Shown piece by piece: positions 55,868 through 64,000 of a stretch of DNA of 64,000 nt. The stretch spans positions 372,001-436,000 of the forward strand of contig NZ_CP124855.1 of NCBI RefSeq assembly GCF_030012525.1, written 5' to 3'. Position 1 is the stretch's first letter, and every line of letters starts with the position of its first letter. The translations under genes and the position numbers were made by a program. Origin of the DNA: Chryseobacterium gotjawalense. GTDB taxonomy: Bacteria; Bacteroidota; Bacteroidia; Flavobacteriales; Weeksellaceae. The notes beneath the pieces are model-generated. The model was not told the origin of the DNA. It saw only the letters and a program-made list of their open reading frames with translations, and did no database searches.

Positions 55868-56992
55868 ATGAGAAAACTACTTTTAATACTTTTAAGTCTG
55901 ATAATTTTTTCCTGTTCCAAAAAAGAAACGGTTCAGGAAGAGATCAGCACCGTTCACGGAGATCAGGTCACTTTAAACGACTTGCAGATCAAAAACTCGG
56001 GAATTGAAACCAACACGTTAAGCAATCTCGATATCGCGCACAAAATTATGCTCACCGGACAGATCGACGTGCCACCACAAGGAATGGCAAGCGTTTCTGC
56101 TCCAAGTGGAGGTTATGTGAGAGTTTCCCGATTTATGCCCGGAAATTTTGTGAAAAAAGGACAGAGTTTAGCAACCTTAGAAAATCCTGAATTAGTTCAG
56201 CTTCAACAGGATTATTTGTTGGCAAAATCGAATCTTCAATATGCTCAACAGGATTATTCCCGCCAAAAAGATTTGAATACAAACAAAGCCAGCTCCGATA
56301 AAGTAACCCAAAAAGCCTTTAATGAAAGCCAAAATCAAAACATTATGATGAAGGGAATGGCGCAGAAATTATCAGCCTTGGGCATTAATCCGAATTCTTT
56401 AAACGCAAATAATATCCGGCGGACTTTCGCAGTCACTTCTCCAATTTCAGGATATGTTTCGACCGTGAATGTGAATATCGGACAATATGTGTCGCCGATG
56501 GATAAAATGTTTGATATCGTGAATACTGGTGATATTCATTTGGCTTTAAAGGTTTTTGAAAAGGATTTAAATAAAATTAAAACAGGCCAAAAAGTCTTTG
56601 CCTTCACCAATCAAAATCCTGCAAAAAAATATGAAGCCCGGATTTTCATCATTGGAAAAGATTTCTCGGCAGACCGTAGCGTATTGGTTCACTGTCATTT
56701 TGTGGATAATAATCTGTCTTTAATTCCTGGAACTTTTATGAATGCTGAAATCGAGGCTGATTCTGCTAATGGAACGGTTATTCCCGATGATGCGGTTGTT
56801 ACCTGGGAGGAAAAACAATATGTTTTCGAAGAAATAAAACCCAAAACTTACAGAATGTTTCCCGTAGAAATCGGTAATTCTGAAAATGGTTTTACCGAAC
56901 TTTTAAACTTTAAAAAAGAGAATTCAAACAAAAAGTTCGTCACAAAAGGTGCTTACCAATTATTGATGGCGCTGAAAAATGTAGAAGAGTAA
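55868..56992 (+). CDS. RND periplasmic adaptor (membrane fusion protein), CusB/CzcB-like
   Basis: A 374-residue lipoprotein, lipobox LIIFSC at about residue 17. It has the adaptor architecture: barrel-sandwich halves (GGYVRVSRFMPGNFVKKGQSLATLENPELVQLQQ and SPISGYVSTVNVNIGQYV across the hairpin), a helical hairpin, then a beta-barrel domain (FEKDLNKIKTGQKV). It joins pump to channel. ATG 55868 is the start, not 55835, which overlaps the cytochrome gene. Confidence 0.92.
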   Translation: MRKLLLILLSLIIFSCSKKETVQEEISTVHGDQVTLNDLQIKNSGIETNTLSNLDIAHKIMLTGQIDVPPQGMASVSAPSGGYVRVSRFMPGNFVKKGQSLATLENPELVQLQQDYLLAKSNLQYAQQDYSRQKDLNTNKASSDKVTQKAFNESQNQNIMMKGMAQKLSALGINPNSLNANNIRRTFAVTSPISGYVSTVNVNIGQYVSPMDKMFDIVNTGDIHLALKVFEKDLNKIKTGQKVFAFTNQNPAKKYEARIFIIGKDFSADRSVLVHCHFVDNNLSLIPGTFMNAEIEADSANGTVIPDDAVVTWEEKQYVFEEIKPKTYRMFPVEIGNSENGFTELLNFKKENSNKKFVTKGAYQLLMALKNVEE

Positions 56993-57197: not shown

Positions 57198-57227
57198 TTG
57201 CAGATAAAAAAAACATTTATATATTTG
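57198..57227 (+). promoter_or_regulatory. trpLp: Promoter of the trp operon
   Basis: TTG (57198-57200), a 19-bp spacer and TATATTTG (57220-57227), an ideal Bacteroidetes promoter. Transcription should begin near 57233, giving a leader of about 270 nt before trpE. Confidence 0.75.
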
Positions 57228-57310
57228 CCTCAATGAAACGCGTCTCAAATATTTCTTAAAAAGAATAATGACCGTTCCATTTGAAATTGAAAAAAAATAT
57301 TTCTCTACAA

Positions 57311-57367
57311 ATGAATTCAATAACAAACAATACTTGGTGGTGGCATTCAAACTCCTTTAGGGTCTGA
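57311..57367 (+). CDS. trpL: trp leader peptide with three consecutive Trp codons
   Basis: An 18-codon frame, ATG 57311 to TGA 57365-57367, encoding MNSITNNTWWWHSNSFRV. The three adjacent TGG codons at 57335-57343 would stall a ribosome when charged tRNA-Trp is scarce. ACAAACA-ATAC just before them (57323-57333) can pair with GTAT-TC-TGTTTGT (57378-57390), an 11-bp stem that a stalled ribosome would block. This is the classic arrangement of a transcription attenuator ahead of a biosynthetic operon. Confidence 0.85.
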   Translation: MNSITNNTWWWHSNSFRV

Positions 57368-57401
57368 AGCAAATCTTGTATTCTGTTTGTAAAAAACATA
57401 T

Positions 57402-57437
57402 AAAAGACTTTGACGGGATCCGTTGAAGTCTTTTTTT
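57402..57437 (+). terminator. trp operon attenuator terminator
   Basis: AAAAGACTTTGACGG and CCGTTGAAGTCTTTT form a 15-bp stem (two G-U pairs) with loop GAT, then a T run. It lies 34 bp after the leader stop and 68 bp before trpE. An upstream CAAATCTT (57370-57377) can pair with AAGA-C-TTTG of the left arm (one bulge), a weak candidate antiterminator. Confidence 0.88.
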
Positions 57438-57504: not shown

Positions 57505-58923
57505 ATGAATTTTGATACTAAAATCAACATAAAAACCACCGTAAAATCGGTGATGAGCGATCTTTTCACACCGGTCGGAATTTATTTGCGTCTGCGCGAT
57601 AAATTTCGGGACACGATTTTGCTCGAAAGTGCCGGAAATCAAAATACCGATAACAATTTTTCCTTCATCGCCATCAATGCAGTTGCCGGAATTGAAATCC
57701 GAAATTTTCAGGAAGCAGAAATTAAATTTCCTCTTGGGAATCCTCAAAAAATCGCTTTAGAAAAAGAGAAGTTGAGTGAATTATTAAATGATTTTACCAA
57801 GTGTTTTGTTTGCGAGAAGCCTTCAAGAGAAATCGGTAAATCCGCTCAGGGATTTTTTGGTTATACGAGTTACGATGCCATTCCGTTCTTCGAAAATATA
57901 AAGTTTAAAGATCGGTCAGAAGAAAATGAAATCCCGTTACTGCGTTACCGACTTTATCAATACGTCATCGCAATTAACCATTACAACGATGAAATGTTCA
58001 TCATTGAAAATAAAATTAAGGATTTAAGATCTGATCTGCCCGAAATTGAAAATTTAATCAATCAGAAAAACGCACCTATTTTTCCTTTTCAAAAAATTGA
58101 CGAAGAAACTTCCAATTTAAAAGACGAAGAATACCGCGAATTGGTCGAAACTGCCAAAAAACATTGTTTCCGTGGCGATGTTTTCCAGTTGGTGTTGAGC
58201 CGCCGATTTGAACAGAAATTTAACGGTGATGAATTCAATGTTTATCGTGCTTTAAGACATATCAATCCTTCGCCATATTTATTTTATTTCGATTACGGCG
58301 ATTACAAATTATTGGGCTCCAGTCCGGAAAGTCAGTTGATTATTAAAGATGGAAAAGCCATTATTCATCCGATTGCAGGGACTTTTAAACGAACCGGAAA
58401 TATTGAAGAAGATTTGAAAGCCGCTGAAGATCTGAAAAAAGATGCCAAGGAAAATGCCGAACACACGATGTTGGTTGATTTGGCACGAAACGATTTAAGC
58501 ATCTGCGGAAAAAACACGACGGTGACGAAGTTGAAAGAAGTCCAGTTTTTTTCTCACGTCATTCATCTGGTCAGCGAAGTTACTGCCGAGGTTGAAGAAA
58601 ATCAAAATCCTTATGAAATGATCGCCACGACTTTTCCGCAGGGAACTTTGAGCGGAGCGCCAAAATATAAAGGCATGGAACTGATCGATTCTTACGAGGA
58701 AACTTCCCGTTCGTTTTACGGAGGATGTATCGGTTTTGTCGGTTTTGATGGAAGCTGCAATCAGGCGATTATGATCCGTACTTTTTTAAGTAAAAATAAT
58801 ACATTGTACTATCAAGCCGGAGCCGGAATTGTCGCGAAATCCTCTGCAGAAAATGAACTGCAGGAAGTGAACAATAAATTGAATGCCCTGAAAATGGCGG
58901 TTAAAAAAGCTACCTCAATATAA
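57505..58923 (+). CDS. trpE: Anthranilate synthase component I
   Basis: A 472-residue chorismate-utilising enzyme making anthranilate with TrpG-supplied ammonia. Motifs include LLESAG of the N-terminal Trp-binding region, then GDVFQLVLSRRFEQKF, LLGSSPESQL, HPIAGTFKRTG, NAEHTMLVDLARNDLS and FPQGTLSGAPK. The feedback site (LLES) suggests inhibition by tryptophan. ATG 57505 (MNFDTKINIKTT) matches the usual family start. Upstream starts at 57448 (GTG) and 57463 would add a Lys-rich stretch without family similarity. Confidence 0.95.
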   Translation: MNFDTKINIKTTVKSVMSDLFTPVGIYLRLRDKFRDTILLESAGNQNTDNNFSFIAINAVAGIEIRNFQEAEIKFPLGNPQKIALEKEKLSELLNDFTKCFVCEKPSREIGKSAQGFFGYTSYDAIPFFENIKFKDRSEENEIPLLRYRLYQYVIAINHYNDEMFIIENKIKDLRSDLPEIENLINQKNAPIFPFQKIDEETSNLKDEEYRELVETAKKHCFRGDVFQLVLSRRFEQKFNGDEFNVYRALRHINPSPYLFYFDYGDYKLLGSSPESQLIIKDGKAIIHPIAGTFKRTGNIEEDLKAAEDLKKDAKENAEHTMLVDLARNDLSICGKNTTVTKLKEVQFFSHVIHLVSEVTAEVEENQNPYEMIATTFPQGTLSGAPKYKGMELIDSYEETSRSFYGGCIGFVGFDGSCNQAIMIRTFLSKNNTLYYQAGAGIVAKSSAENELQEVNNKLNALKMAVKKATSI

Positions 58924-58999: not shown

Positions 59000-59569
59000 A
59001 TGAAAATATTAGTCTTCGATAATTACGACAGTTTCACTTACAATTTGGTTCAAATGATTGAGCAGATTGTGGGAGAAAAGGTAGAGGTCTTCCGCAATGA
59101 TGAAATCACTTTGGAGGAAATCGAAAAGTATGATAAAATTGTGCTTTCTCCCGGACCGGGAATTCCGGGTGAAGCGGGAATTTTAATTGATTTAATAAAA
59201 AAATACGCACCAACAAAATCTATTTTAGGCGTTTGTCTCGGTCAGCAGGCAATCGCAGAAGCGTTTGGCGGAAGTCTGATTAATTTAACGGAAATCTATC
59301 ACGGCGTCGCAACTACCGCAAAAACCATTAAAAAAGAGGCGTTGCTTTTACAGGATTTGGCCGAAAATTTAGAAGTCGGAAGATATCACAGTTGGGCCGT
59401 GAATCCCGACGGTTTTCCGGAAGAACTGGAAATAACTTCAATTGACGAAAATGGAATGATCATGTCTTTGCAACATAAAACGTACGATGTTCACGCCGTT
59501 CAGTATCATCCTGAAAGTATTTTAACACCCGACGGAAGAAAAATAATTGAGAATTTTTTAAAAAACTAA
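59000..59569 (+). CDS. trpG: Anthranilate synthase component II (glutamine amidotransferase)
   Basis: A 189-residue class I glutamine amidotransferase. Nucleophile Cys79 lies in GVCLGQQAIAEAFGG, the oxyanion region in SPGPGIPGEAG, and the catalytic His/Glu in VQYHPESILTP. It feeds ammonia to TrpE. ATG 59000 (MKILVFDNYDSF) is the family start. A start at 58967 adds 11 unrelated residues. The 76-bp gap from trpE is AT-rich with a loose repeat of TAAC/ACATTGATAA words. Confidence 0.95.
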   Translation: MKILVFDNYDSFTYNLVQMIEQIVGEKVEVFRNDEITLEEIEKYDKIVLSPGPGIPGEAGILIDLIKKYAPTKSILGVCLGQQAIAEAFGGSLINLTEIYHGVATTAKTIKKEALLLQDLAENLEVGRYHSWAVNPDGFPEELEITSIDENGMIMSLQHKTYDVHAVQYHPESILTPDGRKIIENFLKN

Positions 59570-59570
59570 A

Positions 59571-59611
59571 GCCACGAAGTGGCGACAATCAATAGCACAG
59601 GGTGAAGCCCT
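59571..59611 (+). repeat. Double hairpin between trpG and trpD
   Basis: GCCAC-GAA-GTGGC (59571-59583) starts 2 bp after the trpG stop, and AGGG-N5-CCCT (59599-59611) follows before the trpD start. It resembles short palindromic intergenic repeats and is not followed by a T run. Confidence 0.5.
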
Positions 59612-59633
59612 ATGAAACATGAAAAAATTTAAA

Positions 59634-60620
59634 ATGAAAGACATCTTACAATATTTATTCAACCATCAAACATTAAGCAAAGCGCAAGCGAAATCGATTC
59701 TCCTGGAAATTTCAAAGAATATTTTCAATGAAATTGAAGTCACCTCTTTCGTCACAGTTTTCCTGATGAGAAGTATTACGTTGGCAGAACTGGAAGGTTT
59801 CACCGAAGCGTTGCAGCAACTCGCGCCTCAAATTGATTTGGGAACCGACGATTTGGTGGATATCGTTGGAACGGGTGGTGACGGAAAAAACACCTTTAAT
59901 ATTTCAACTTTGGCGAGTCTGGTCGTAGCCGGAACCGGACAAAAAGTGGCAAAACACGGAAATTACGCAGCTTCCACGATCAGTGGTGCATCCAATGTTT
60001 TAGAAACGCTCGGTTATCGTTTTAAAGAAACTGAAGCCGACTTAAAAATTGATTTAGAAAAAGGAAATTTCTGTTATTTACACGCGCCGATTTTCCACAC
60101 TTCTTTAAAATCTATTGCGCCGATGCGTAAAAATTTAGGCTTGAAAACTTTTTTCAATATCCTGGGACCTTTGATTAATCCGGCGAAACCAAAATACACC
60201 ATGATCGGTGTCGCGAATCTTGAGATTGCACGGATCTATCAGTATTTGCTACAGAAAAAAAACGCCGATTTTCTGTTAGTCAATGCATTGGATGGTTACG
60301 ATGAAATCAGTTTGACCGGCGATACCAAAATCATGGATAAAAACGGCGAAAGTATTTATTCCGCCCAGGAATTACAGTTCAGAAATATCGAACCTGAAAC
60401 CATTTTTGGGGGAAACAGTACCGAAGAAGCCGCGCAGATTTTCAAAAAAATTCTGGAAGGCAAAGGATCTTATGAACAGAACGCCGTGGTTTTGGCCAAC
60501 GCCGCAATGGCTTTGAAAAATACCGAAAAATACGGTGAGTATGAAAATTGCTTAATGATGGCGACAGAAAGTTTACTGCAAGGAAAAGCACTGAATTGTT
60601 TTAAAAAAGTGATTGATTAG
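59634..60620 (+). CDS. trpD: Anthranilate phosphoribosyltransferase
   Basis: A 328-residue enzyme joining anthranilate to PRPP. It has DIVGTGGDGKNTFNIST (PRPP-binding GTGGD), KHGNYAAST, APMRKNLGLKTFFNILGPLINP within its middle and GYDEISLTG. The amidotransferase domain is separate here, unlike the TrpGD fusion of E. coli. Starts at 59634 (MKDILQYLFNHQ) and 59619 are both possible. The first is closer to the family start. Confidence 0.95.
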   Translation: MKDILQYLFNHQTLSKAQAKSILLEISKNIFNEIEVTSFVTVFLMRSITLAELEGFTEALQQLAPQIDLGTDDLVDIVGTGGDGKNTFNISTLASLVVAGTGQKVAKHGNYAASTISGASNVLETLGYRFKETEADLKIDLEKGNFCYLHAPIFHTSLKSIAPMRKNLGLKTFFNILGPLINPAKPKYTMIGVANLEIARIYQYLLQKKNADFLLVNALDGYDEISLTGDTKIMDKNGESIYSAQELQFRNIEPETIFGGNSTEEAAQIFKKILEGKGSYEQNAVVLANAAMALKNTEKYGEYENCLMMATESLLQGKALNCFKKVID

Positions 60621-60624
60621 CGTT

Positions 60625-60713
60625 TTTGGGGCGACAATTTCCGTCTTCCGCTCCCAATCTTTTTTGTTCCGTTTTGCTCCACAAAAAAGGATTTCCGCTC
60701 AAGCCGGGTCGCA
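60625..60713 (+). repeat. Hairpin-forming intergenic repeat, copy 3
   Basis: Begins TTTGGGGCGAC 4 bp after the trpD stop. It continues AATTTCCGTCTTCCGCTCCC, inner arms CTTTTTTGT / ACAAAAAAG (9 bp perfect), GGATTTCCGCTCAAGCCGGG and TCGCA. GCGAC and GTCGC at the ends are complementary. It lies inside the trp operon between trpD and trpC. Confidence 0.85.
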
Positions 60714-60745
60714 AACTCTGCTACAAATAAAAATTAGAAATAAAA

Positions 60746-61525
60746 ATGAATATTCTCAACAAAATAATCGAACATAAAAAGATAGAAGTTGCCCAGGCAA
60801 AAAAGAAAATCTCTTTAACTGAATTAAAGGAGGCCGTGTTTTTTCAGCGCAAAACTTTTTCCTTAAAAAAATCCGTCAAATCGGGAAGCGGCATCATCTC
60901 TGAATTTAAAAGAAAGTCACCGAGTAAAGGAATTATTAATGATAAAGCTGATGTTTCAGAAGTCGCAAAATCATACGAAAAATTCGGGGCAAGCGGAATT
61001 TCAATTTTAACTGATGAAAGCTTTTTTGGCGGGACGCTGCACGATATTTTAAAAGTAAGACAGGAAATTTCAATTCCCATTTTGCGTAAAGATTTCATGA
61101 TTGACGAATACCAGTTTTACGAAGCAAAAGCCAACGGAGCCGATGCTGTTTTGTTAATCGCAAGTTGTCTGTCGCCAGCGCAGGTTCAGGAGTTTACGGA
61201 ATTATCTCACGGGCTGGATTTAGAAGTTTTGTTGGAAATCCATACCGAAGAAGAACTCAAACATATTAATAGAAACGTAGATTTGGCGGGAATAAATAAT
61301 CGAAATTTAAAAGATTTCAAAGTCGATTTACAGCATTCTGTTAATTTGAAAAACATGTTGCCAAAAGAAATTCTGGCTGTTGCAGAAAGTGGAATTTATG
61401 CTGTTGAGGATTTCAAATTCCTGAAAGAAAAAGGATTTGACGCCTTTTTAATGGGAGAATATTTTATGCGAAATGAAGATCCGGGACTTGCATTCGGAGA
61501 GTTGATCAATATAATTAAAAATTAG
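60746..61525 (+). CDS. trpC: Indole-3-glycerol-phosphate synthase
   Basis: A 259-residue TIM-barrel enzyme closing the indole ring. It shows the catalytic ISEFKRKSPSKG segment, ILTDESFFGGTL, ILRKDFMIDEYQ, GINNRNLKDF and AESGI near the C-terminus. It is a separate polypeptide, not fused to TrpF as in E. coli. A hairpin starts 2 bp after its stop. Confidence 0.95.
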   Translation: MNILNKIIEHKKIEVAQAKKKISLTELKEAVFFQRKTFSLKKSVKSGSGIISEFKRKSPSKGIINDKADVSEVAKSYEKFGASGISILTDESFFGGTLHDILKVRQEISIPILRKDFMIDEYQFYEAKANGADAVLLIASCLSPAQVQEFTELSHGLDLEVLLEIHTEEELKHINRNVDLAGINNRNLKDFKVDLQHSVNLKNMLPKEILAVAESGIYAVEDFKFLKEKGFDAFLMGEYFMRNEDPGLAFGELINIIKN

Positions 61526-61527
61526 AA

Positions 61528-61572
61528 GCCACGAATTCACGAACGGTTTTATTTAATTCGTGTATTGGTGGC
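61528..61572 (+). repeat. Palindromic repeat between trpC and trpF
   Basis: GCCACGAATTCACGAA and TTCGTGTATTGGTGGC pair at 14 of 16 positions around a 13-nt loop. It fills nearly all the 58-bp gap and ends 11 bp before the trpF ATG. Confidence 0.7.
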
Positions 61573-61583
61573 AAAAAAATAAT

Positions 61584-63419
61584 ATGAAATTAAAAGTTTG
61601 CGGTCTTACAAAACTCAATCAAATTCGTGAATTAGTGGCAATGAATATTGATTTCTTGGGCTTTATATTTTACGAAAAATCACCGCGTTATGTTTTGAAT
61701 ACTTTGACTTGCAATGAAATTAAATCCATTAATCATCAAGGCAAAATCGGTGTTTTCGTCAATGAAAAGATTGAGAAAATCATTGATATTACTGAAAAAT
61801 CAGGATTGAATTTTATTCAGCTTCACGGCGACGAAGACGAAAATTTTATCACAGAATTAAAACAAAAATTAAAGCCCGAAGTCGGAATTATAAAAGCGAT
61901 TAGAGTAGGAAATGATTCGTCTGAAGTTAAAAATCAAGTCGAAAACATCTTAAATCTCAAATCTCAAATCTCAGATCTTTTATTCGATACCGATTCCAAA
62001 TCGTTTGGCGGAACCGGAAAAACCTTCGACTGGCAAATTTTAAATGAGTTAAAAATCACCAAACCTTATTTTCTAAGTGGTGGGATTTCAGAAGAAAATA
62101 TTGAAAATATAAAATTATTAGAACAGCAACCTTTCGCTCTGGATATCAATTCAAAATTTGAAATTGAGCCGGGAAATAAGGATTTAGAAAAAATTAAAAA
62201 CTTCATAAGCGTTGTTAACACCGCTCCAAAAATAAAAATTATGAACTATCAAAACCCCGACAAAAACGGATATTATGGCGAATTTGGCGGCGCTTTCGTT
62301 CCCGAAATGCTGTATCCAAATGTCGAACAGTTACAAAATCAGTATTTAGACATTATCAATTCAGAAGAATTCCAAACCGAGTTTCGTGATCTGTTGAAAA
62401 ATTATGTAGGCCGCGCAACGCCACTGTATTTTTCTAAAAATTTGAGCGAAAAATACCAAACGCAGGTTTATTTGAAGCGCGAAGATTTGAATCACACCGG
62501 TGCCCATAAAATCAATAATGCGTTGGGACAGGTTTTATTGGCGAAAAAGTTAGGAAAAAAAAGGATTATCGCTGAAACCGGCGCCGGTCAACATGGCGTG
62601 GCAACGGCAACTGCGTGCGCTTTGATGAATCTGGAATGCATCGTTTATATGGGCGAAATCGACATTGCCCGTCAAGCCCCGAATGTTGGACGGATGAAAA
62701 TGTTGGGTGCCACAGTAATTCCCGCAACATCAGGATCGAAAACGTTGAAAGATGCCGTGAATGAAGCGCTTCGGGATTGGATCAATAATGCTTCGACCAC
62801 GCATTATATCATCGGCAGTGTCGTTGGGCCGCATCCTTTTCCCGACTTAGTCGCACGTTTTCAAAGTGTCATTTCCGAAGAAATAAAATGGCAGTTAAAA
62901 GAGAAAATCGGTCGTGAAAATCCCGATTACGTAATCGCCTGTGTTGGTGGCGGAAGCAATGCTGCCGGTACTTTCTATCATTTTGTAGATGAACCGGCCG
63001 TGAAAATTATTGCAGCAGAAGCGGGCGGTTTCGGGTTGGATTCCGGAAAATCTGCAGCGACCACTTTCCTCGGAACTTTAGGGGTTTTGCACGGTAGTAA
63101 AAGTTTGGTGATGCAAACGGAAGATGGACAGGTCATCGAGCCGCATTCGATTTCTGCCGGTTTAGATTATCCCGGAATCGGCCCTTTTCATGCGAATTTA
63201 TTTAAAGAAAAAAGAGCAGAATTTTTCAGCATTACCGATGAAGAAGCGCTGAAATCTGCGTTTGAACTGACTCAGATTGAGGGAATTATTCCTGCCCTGG
63301 AATCGGCGCACGCTTTGGCGGTTTTGGGAAAGAAAAAGTTTAAAAAAGAAGACGTCGTCGTGATTTGTTTGAGCGGAAGAGGCGATAAGGATATGGAAAC
63401 GTATTTGAAAAATTTATAG
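61584..63419 (+). CDS. trpFB: Fused phosphoribosylanthranilate isomerase-tryptophan synthase beta chain (TrpF-TrpB)
   Basis: One 611-codon frame with no stop between the two enzymes. Residues 1 to about 207 are TrpF: the catalytic Cys in [22 protein letters not shown], and Asp in [20 protein letters not shown] linker of about a dozen residues ([12 protein letters not shown]) leads to TrpB from codon 220, starting [23 protein letters not shown]. TrpB has the PLP lysine in [22 protein letters not shown]-type loops and the phosphate cradle GGGSNA. TrpF and TrpB are usually separate. An internal ATG at 62241 could also give free TrpB. Confidence 0.9.
62241..63419 (+). other. trpB: TrpB module with possible internal start
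   Basis: The TrpB part of the fusion, 392 codons from ATG 62241, begins exactly where independent TrpB proteins begin. The AT-rich sequence AAAATAAAAATT precedes it, like many starts in this genome. It may therefore be translated both as a fusion and alone. It makes tryptophan from indole and serine with TrpA, encoded next. Confidence 0.75.
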
Positions 63420-63424
63420 CATTA

Positions 63425-63526
63425 TTTGGGCGACTTTTCCGTCTTCCACTCCCGCTTTTTTATAGTGCTGGCTTCGGCTTCGCTCAGCCACCAATATAAA
63501 AAGAGCTCCGTTCAAGCCGGGTCGCA
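63425..63526 (+). repeat. Hairpin-forming intergenic repeat, copy 4
   Basis: Begins TTTGGGCGAC 5 bp after the trpB stop. It has TTTTCCGTCTTCCACTCCC, inner arms CTTTTTTATA / TATAAAAAGAG enclosing a second hairpin (GTGGCTGAGC-type arms GCTGGCT / AGCCACC region), then TTCAAGCCGGGTCGCA. It lies inside the trp operon between trpB and trpA. Confidence 0.8.
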
Positions 63527-63565
63527 GATTCCGTATTTTTACAAAACCCTATTTAAAACAAAAAA

Positions 63566-64000
63566 ATGAATAATAACACCAGCATCAAACTTCCAACCTC
63601 CAACTTCGGACCTGAAAAAAAACTCAACATCTATTTCACCGCCGGAATTCCGAAGTTGAAAGACACTACAGAAATATTAAAACTAATCCAATATTCAGGC
63701 GCAGATTACATCGAAATCGGAATGCCTTATTCTGATCCCGTTGCCGATGGACCTGTGATTCAGAAAGCACACGAAATTGCTCTGAAAAAAGGAATGACCA
63801 TCGCAGAACTTTTCAGTCAACTGAAATCGGTGAAATCAGAAATGAATATTCCCATTATTTTAATGGGCTACATCAATCCTGTTTTAAGTTTCGGTTTCGA
63901 AAATTTTTGTAAAGAATGTAAAGATTCCGGGGTTTCGGGATTGATTATTCCGGATTTACCGGCCGTGGAATTTGAGAAAAACTACAGAATAATTTTAGAG
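63566..64000 (+). CDS. trpA: Tryptophan synthase alpha chain (5' part, cut by the window edge)
   Basis: 145 codons from ATG 63566 to the window end with no stop. The sequence has KLNIYFTAGIPKLKDT, the catalytic Glu in YIEIGMPYSDPVADGP (with the second acidic Asp), PIILMGYINPVLSFG and GLIIPDLPAVE. It cleaves indole-3-glycerol phosphate and passes indole to TrpB. Its N-terminus has about 18 residues (NNNTSIKLPTSNFGPEKK) ahead of the first strand. It is the last visible gene of the trp operon. Confidence 0.95.
   Translation, partial: MNNNTSIKLPTSNFGPEKKLNIYFTAGIPKLKDTTEILKLIQYSGADYIEIGMPYSDPVADGPVIQKAHEIALKKGMTIAELFSQLKSVKSEMNIPIILMGYINPVLSFGFENFCKECKDSGVSGLIIPDLPAVEFEKNYRIILE

Follow-up and report, generated by a model that had tools for sequence, protein, structure and literature searches.

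Upstream of trpE in Chryseobacterium gotjawalense lies a short open reading frame with three adjacent tryptophan codons followed by a hairpin, which raises the question of whether the trp operon of this organism is controlled by a ribosome translating a leader peptide. A first-pass annotation of the window (the whole 64,000-nucleotide stretch of DNA analysed here, from a 3.27 Mb genome consisting of a single contig) had read this segment as a trp attenuator made up of a promoter, an 18-residue WWW leader, a stem and a terminator with a U tract, followed by trpE, and all of these were found in place when the sequence was re-examined. As set out below, the conservation of leader, terminator and antiterminator, together with covariation of the antiterminator, supports that interpretation, and we consider it very probable that ribosomes control the trp operon here by transcription attenuation, the leader being a divergent copy of the Bacteroid-trp RNA (RF01692).

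All features of the trp leader and operon described here lie on the forward strand. A primary-sigma promoter of the Bacteroidetes type (57198-57227) is recognised from the sequence itself, the TAnnTTTG consensus of Flavobacterium psychrophilum and the corresponding regions of the family; it consists of a -33-like TTG at 57198 and a -7 box of the TAnnTTTG form, TATATTTG, at 57220-57227, with the transcription start site predicted at about 57232. The leader ORF (57311-57367; 18 codons and a stop) encodes the peptide MNSITNNTWWWHSNSFRV, and its regulatory Trp codons are the three TGG triplets at 57335-57343. It is followed by an intrinsic terminator (57402-57437), a 15-bp hairpin with a 3-nt loop and a U tract and an energy of -16.8 kcal/mol, which ends 67 nt before the ATG of trpE at 57505. 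The leader folds better than its shuffled counterparts (z = -4.4; none of 200 shuffles folds as well), and the sequence TGGTGGTGG occurs a single time on both strands of the 64-kb window.

The gene behind the terminator, anthranilate synthase component I (trpE, 57505-58923; Pfam PF00425 and PF04715, and homologues), is the first of an operon that continues over 59003-64000 with trpG, trpD, trpC, trpF-trpB and trpA, the last of which extends past the window end. Here trpF and trpB share one uninterrupted frame (61560-63419, PRAI followed by PALP domains); most of the congeners sampled give two distinct matches, nearly adjacent or about 550-600 nt apart, and in one congener, G003, both lie in a single 828-aa frame. 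On the other side of the leader, an unrelated operon of efflux genes ends at 56992.

A search of the window with Rfam at the gathering threshold returned only a Flavo-1 RNA (RF01705, 30676-30753, 62.5 bits), a motif of unknown function located elsewhere in the window. The possibility that the trp leader is an unknown element was dropped when a relaxed search and the literature led to RF01692, the 'Bacteroidete tryptophan peptide leader RNA', which matches 57288-57414 with 43.7 bits (E 4.6e-4 in the relaxed search of the region and 9.8e-4 genome-wide). Since the gathering score of this family is 49 bits, a detection limit and not a biological feature, the window copy is missed at the threshold. 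Several congeners score 49.5-56.2 bits and pass the cut-off, and Flavobacterium species reach up to 79. In a search with stricter filters, RF01692 reached the cut-off in 28 of 316 family genomes, though trpE is present in 285 of 320; Chryseobacterium (g6) yielded no match above the cut-off, although leader and terminator are present.

Among 36 genomes of the genus, 31 carry trpE, and every one of these 31 has a short WW or WWW ORF followed by a terminator upstream of it. The other five (G010, G025, G027, G028 and G032) contain only weak TrpE-like matches and appear to lack trpE, and none of them gave an RF01692 match in the stricter-filter search. At the family level a WW(W) ORF with terminator precedes trpE in 97 of the 98 regions fetched. 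Further out, mainly in the order and class, all 29 loci have a Trp-run ORF (two of them with W.W instead of WW), and in a class-level set of 80 named loci, including Chryseobacterium, Epilithonimonas, Elizabethkingia, Capnocytophaga, Flavobacterium, Tenacibaculum, Chitinophagaceae and Roseivirga, such an ORF was found in 75; at least some of the remaining five are sequences that end at a contig end. In summary, genus and family keep all three elements, WW(W) ORF, terminator and antiterminator, and most of the class keeps the first two. Across the class the Trp run is kept in frame while the remainder of the peptide diverges, as is expected for regulatory codons. The outcome that the first-pass annotation had named as speaking against an attenuator, namely loss of the leader frame or of the Trp codons in the trpE upstream regions of relatives, was not seen. 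A phylum-wide scan upstream of the best TrpE match left about half of the distant genomes without a Trp ORF; these distant hits have 34-38% identity, and those checked adjoin unrelated genes. They could be paralogues encoded away from the trp operon and were therefore not counted as absences. Leader-peptide attenuation of trp is probably an ancestral mode of control conserved across Flavobacteriia and Chitinophagia.

An attenuator of this type depends on an alternative pairing that competes with the terminator. The first-pass annotation had regarded the antiterminator as the weakest part of the system, with 8 bp and a bulge. The best duplex in the window in fact reaches 13 bp, interrupted by a single bulged base, at -12.9 to -13.6 kcal/mol, and joins region 2 (57353-57365), which lies inside the leader ORF about 10 nt past the last Trp codon and overlaps the stop codon by one base, to region 3 (57405-57418), which it has in common with the 5' arm of the terminator. 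Over 96 loci of the family the duplex averages 11.4 bp and -12.8 kcal/mol. Between genera the two strands change together, as in the pairs GTCGGGTCT/GACTTTGAC, CGCTGAGTCT/GACTTCAGCG, GCAGGGTCT/GACTTCTGC and TGTCGGATCT/GACTTCGGCA. To put this on a quantitative footing, strands were swapped between loci: in 16 clade representatives the own pairs reach -13.3 kcal/mol as against about -11 for swapped ones, with none of 20000 permutations as good, and with 116 distinct loci not one permutation in 5000 attains the mean of the actual pairs, figures that are supportive rather than exact probabilities, as the permutations contain no model of phylogeny and shared ancestry is not fully corrected. Pairing and covariation in the sequences thus make the antiterminator well supported, and it can no longer be called the weak point. 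The trpE leaders L104-L117 and L120, mostly from Flavobacteriaceae, show mostly weak pairing between region 2 and the terminator 5' arm; in these a CGTGA-like segment after the Trp codons complements the terminator loop and 3' arm (TCACG), which suggests a different register of the antiterminator.

The second stem, P1, would act as protector or pause hairpin. Its 5' arm ACAAACAATAC (57323-57333) directly precedes the Trp codons and pairs with the 3' arm GTATTCTGTTTGT (57378-57390) in the minimum free energy fold as well as in the consensus hairpin of RF01692. Covariation had been proposed as a check on both stems, and P1 came out of it less clearly than the antiterminator: the advantage of own over swapped pairs is modest, with 45 of 20000 permutations as good, and the stem is missing in some Kaistella clades.

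Anatomy, conservation and antiterminator covariation are established by these comparisons; we infer the rest of the scheme, namely stalling, timing, termination and a response to tryptophan. Transcription would begin at the TAnnTTTG promoter, and behind the polymerase a ribosome would translate the WWW leader. A shortage of charged tRNA-Trp would stall this ribosome on UGG, where it would cover the sequence through the Trp codons. P1 would then be open and region 2 free to pair with the terminator's 5' arm as it emerges, ahead of the synthesis of the 3' arm, and transcription would proceed into the operon. With plentiful tryptophan the ribosome would reach the stop codon that overlaps region 2, which would then be hidden, so that the terminator could form and transcription would end before trpE. 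In the absence of translation P1 would enclose region 2 and termination would be partly favoured.

This scheme was examined with a masking model, in which the nucleotides covered by the ribosome are masked and the RNA is folded up to the terminator apex. For the window, stalling on the second Trp codon gives 11.0 expected antiterminator pairs; the figure is 2.9 when the ribosome sits on the stop codon and 6.3 when there is no ribosome. The 17 loci that share this type of leader give 9.7, 1.2 and 5.9, in that order. A stalled ribosome yields more antiterminator pairs than no ribosome at 96 of 96 loci. Pairing, covariation and masking model together describe, in structural terms, a competing antiterminator that is freed by a ribosome stalled on the regulatory codons. 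At equilibrium the finished terminator always wins over the antiterminator in the model once the 3' arm has been made, and the decision would therefore be kinetic and dependent on timing, as it is in E. coli. Where the leader is of the Chryseobacterium type, about 18 nt separate region 2 from the stop codon downstream. The model leaves region 2 unmasked when a ribosome waits on that codon, and does not tell the stalled state from the state at the stop; in such leaders the switching would have to come from the ribosome's passage and not from its parking.

The first-pass annotation had further pointed out that such a switch must work with starts that lack Shine-Dalgarno sequences. The geometry of the promoter makes this concern moot for most relatives in the family, whose RNA is predicted to begin at the leader AUG; the WWW ORF of the window is itself not leaderless. 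All 97 family regions with a leader have a TAnnTTTG box upstream of it. In 78 of them exactly 4 or 5 nt separate the box from the leader ATG, which places this ATG at +1 or +2. Because of this spacing, the leader mRNA of these 78 members is probably leaderless, as judged from the promoter consensus and predicted 5' ends. The F. psychrophilum study PMC9723704 places the TAnnTTTG box at -12 to -5 and puts the share of leaderless mRNAs in that species at only 5.5%. In the genome studied here, the pattern TAnnTTTG-N4-5-ATG occurs 185 times and the reversed pattern 94 times, which points to a moderate general enrichment of such starts.

In the window, the position that most relatives use as the start of the WWW leader is occupied by the ATG of a promoter-proximal mini-ORF (57233-57259, 8 codons, MKRVSNIS) at the predicted +2, and the WWW ORF starts 78 nt further on, behind a lineage-specific insertion (57233-57310) between promoter-proximal start and leader ORF that measures 66-92 nt in relatives. 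Four relatives (L003, L005, L009 and L012) have the same layout of mini-ORF and WWW ORF with differing mini-ORF peptides. Conservation of the peptide MKRVSNIS was considered and rejected, as every relative has a different one. An imperfect hairpin or inverted repeat at the insertion (57228-57284), recognisable by eye, gave a fold z-score of -2.5, but of -1.2 when another segment was folded, and with such weak and mixed scores we claim no function for it. On balance we lean towards a reading in which the trp attenuator of Weeksellaceae uses a leaderless mRNA. Translation of the WWW leader would begin at or next to the transcription start site, so that the ribosome could load on the emerging 5' end and keep step with the polymerase without a Shine-Dalgarno sequence; the lineage of the window would have secondarily gained the insertion of about 78 nt, with a decoy mini-ORF remaining at the former leaderless start and the WWW ORF reached by internal initiation.

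Could the same arrangement serve another purpose? The hairpin also lies downstream of the unrelated operon that ends at 56992 and could end that transcript, and one might picture it as an ordinary terminator of the efflux genes, with the leader ORF acting on translation through ribosome coupling from leader to trpE. The promoter that separates the leader from the preceding genes in 97 of 97 family regions with a leader argues against this, the widely variable distance between leader and trpE among relatives does not fit coupling, and part of the ORF shows covariation with the terminator 5' arm; we regard such an arrangement as unlikely. The trp operon of B. subtilis is regulated by TRAP, and this precedent for the same operon lends some plausibility to a metabolite or protein sensor, of the TRAP type or a Trp-binding RNA element, that would read the signal while the Trp codons are incidental. 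Incidental codons would hardly be kept as in-frame runs across a class in which the peptide otherwise diverges, and the sole significant Rfam match of the region is to a family of Trp leader peptides, which makes a sensor of this kind very improbable. Least credible, to the point of being negligible, is the assembly by chance of a random short ORF beside a random terminator: short ORFs and U tracts are common in AT-rich intergenic DNA, yet a short ATG-initiated ORF with WWW was found in none of 9700 shuffled upstream regions of the family (with WW in 0.7%), and the arrangement is kept across well over a hundred loci.

Ribosome-mediated attenuation at this locus is not a new kind of switch, the Bacteroidetes leader being already catalogued as RF01692; the surprise that the first-pass annotation expressed at trp attenuation in a member of this phylum is accordingly reduced, while the system that it described is real. 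Vitreschak and co-workers reportedly predicted attenuators in Bacteroidetes/Chlorobi in 2004 (FEMS Microbiol Lett). The Bacteroid-trp family was described by Weinberg et al. 2010 (PMC2864571), and it shares with the window the occurrence upstream of trp genes of Bacteroidetes, a short ORF with a run of Trp codons and a consensus hairpin around these codons that corresponds to P1. It differs in that the matched model stops within the terminator 5' arm and that its printed consensus structure does not contain the antiterminator pairing of the window. For F. psychrophilum, which belongs to the same class of bacteria, Bacteroid-trp upstream of trp is noted in PMC6414381, and leader-peptide attenuation of amino-acid operons, inferred from transcriptome and structure, is reported in PMC9723704; the passages of these two articles used here describe neither the antiterminator nor a leaderless start.

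The E. coli trp leader (RF00513) resembles the window in its Trp codons within a short leader ORF, its protector stem, its U tract and its mutually exclusive antiterminator and terminator sharing one arm; in contrast to it, the window has region 2 inside the ORF rather than past its stop, a Bacteroidetes promoter and a start that is not of the Shine-Dalgarno type, and RF00513 gave no match over the window at the gathering score nor over the region at E up to 10. In Sinorhizobium meliloti the attenuator RNA begins with the ATG of trpL and is leaderless (PMC7298713), as is predicted for most Weeksellaceae relatives and unlike the WWW ORF of the window; its lineage is unrelated. New in this analysis are an antiterminator that lies within the ORF and covaries, a census across the class, the geometry that predicts a leaderless start, and the observation that RF01692 misses most Weeksellaceae including Chryseobacterium.

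The same genome contains a candidate His attenuator upstream of hisG (L267, at about G000:C1:1037443-1037650 on the minus strand), where a short ORF, MKNTTALFHHYHLI, lies 15 nt past a TATATTTG box and is followed by a hairpin and U tract before the gene; no significant Rfam match was obtained for this leader region. A profile search of the genome for further attenuator loci found no ilvD (PF00920) and no prephenate dehydratase (PF00800), both of which were found in 14 of 14 control genomes.

For the organism itself the window holds ordinary regulation. For the group it means that attenuation of trp through a leader peptide is not confined to enteric bacteria, and the predicted leaderless start of the leader would be a simple answer to the coupling of ribosome and polymerase in bacteria that initiate without Shine-Dalgarno sequences.
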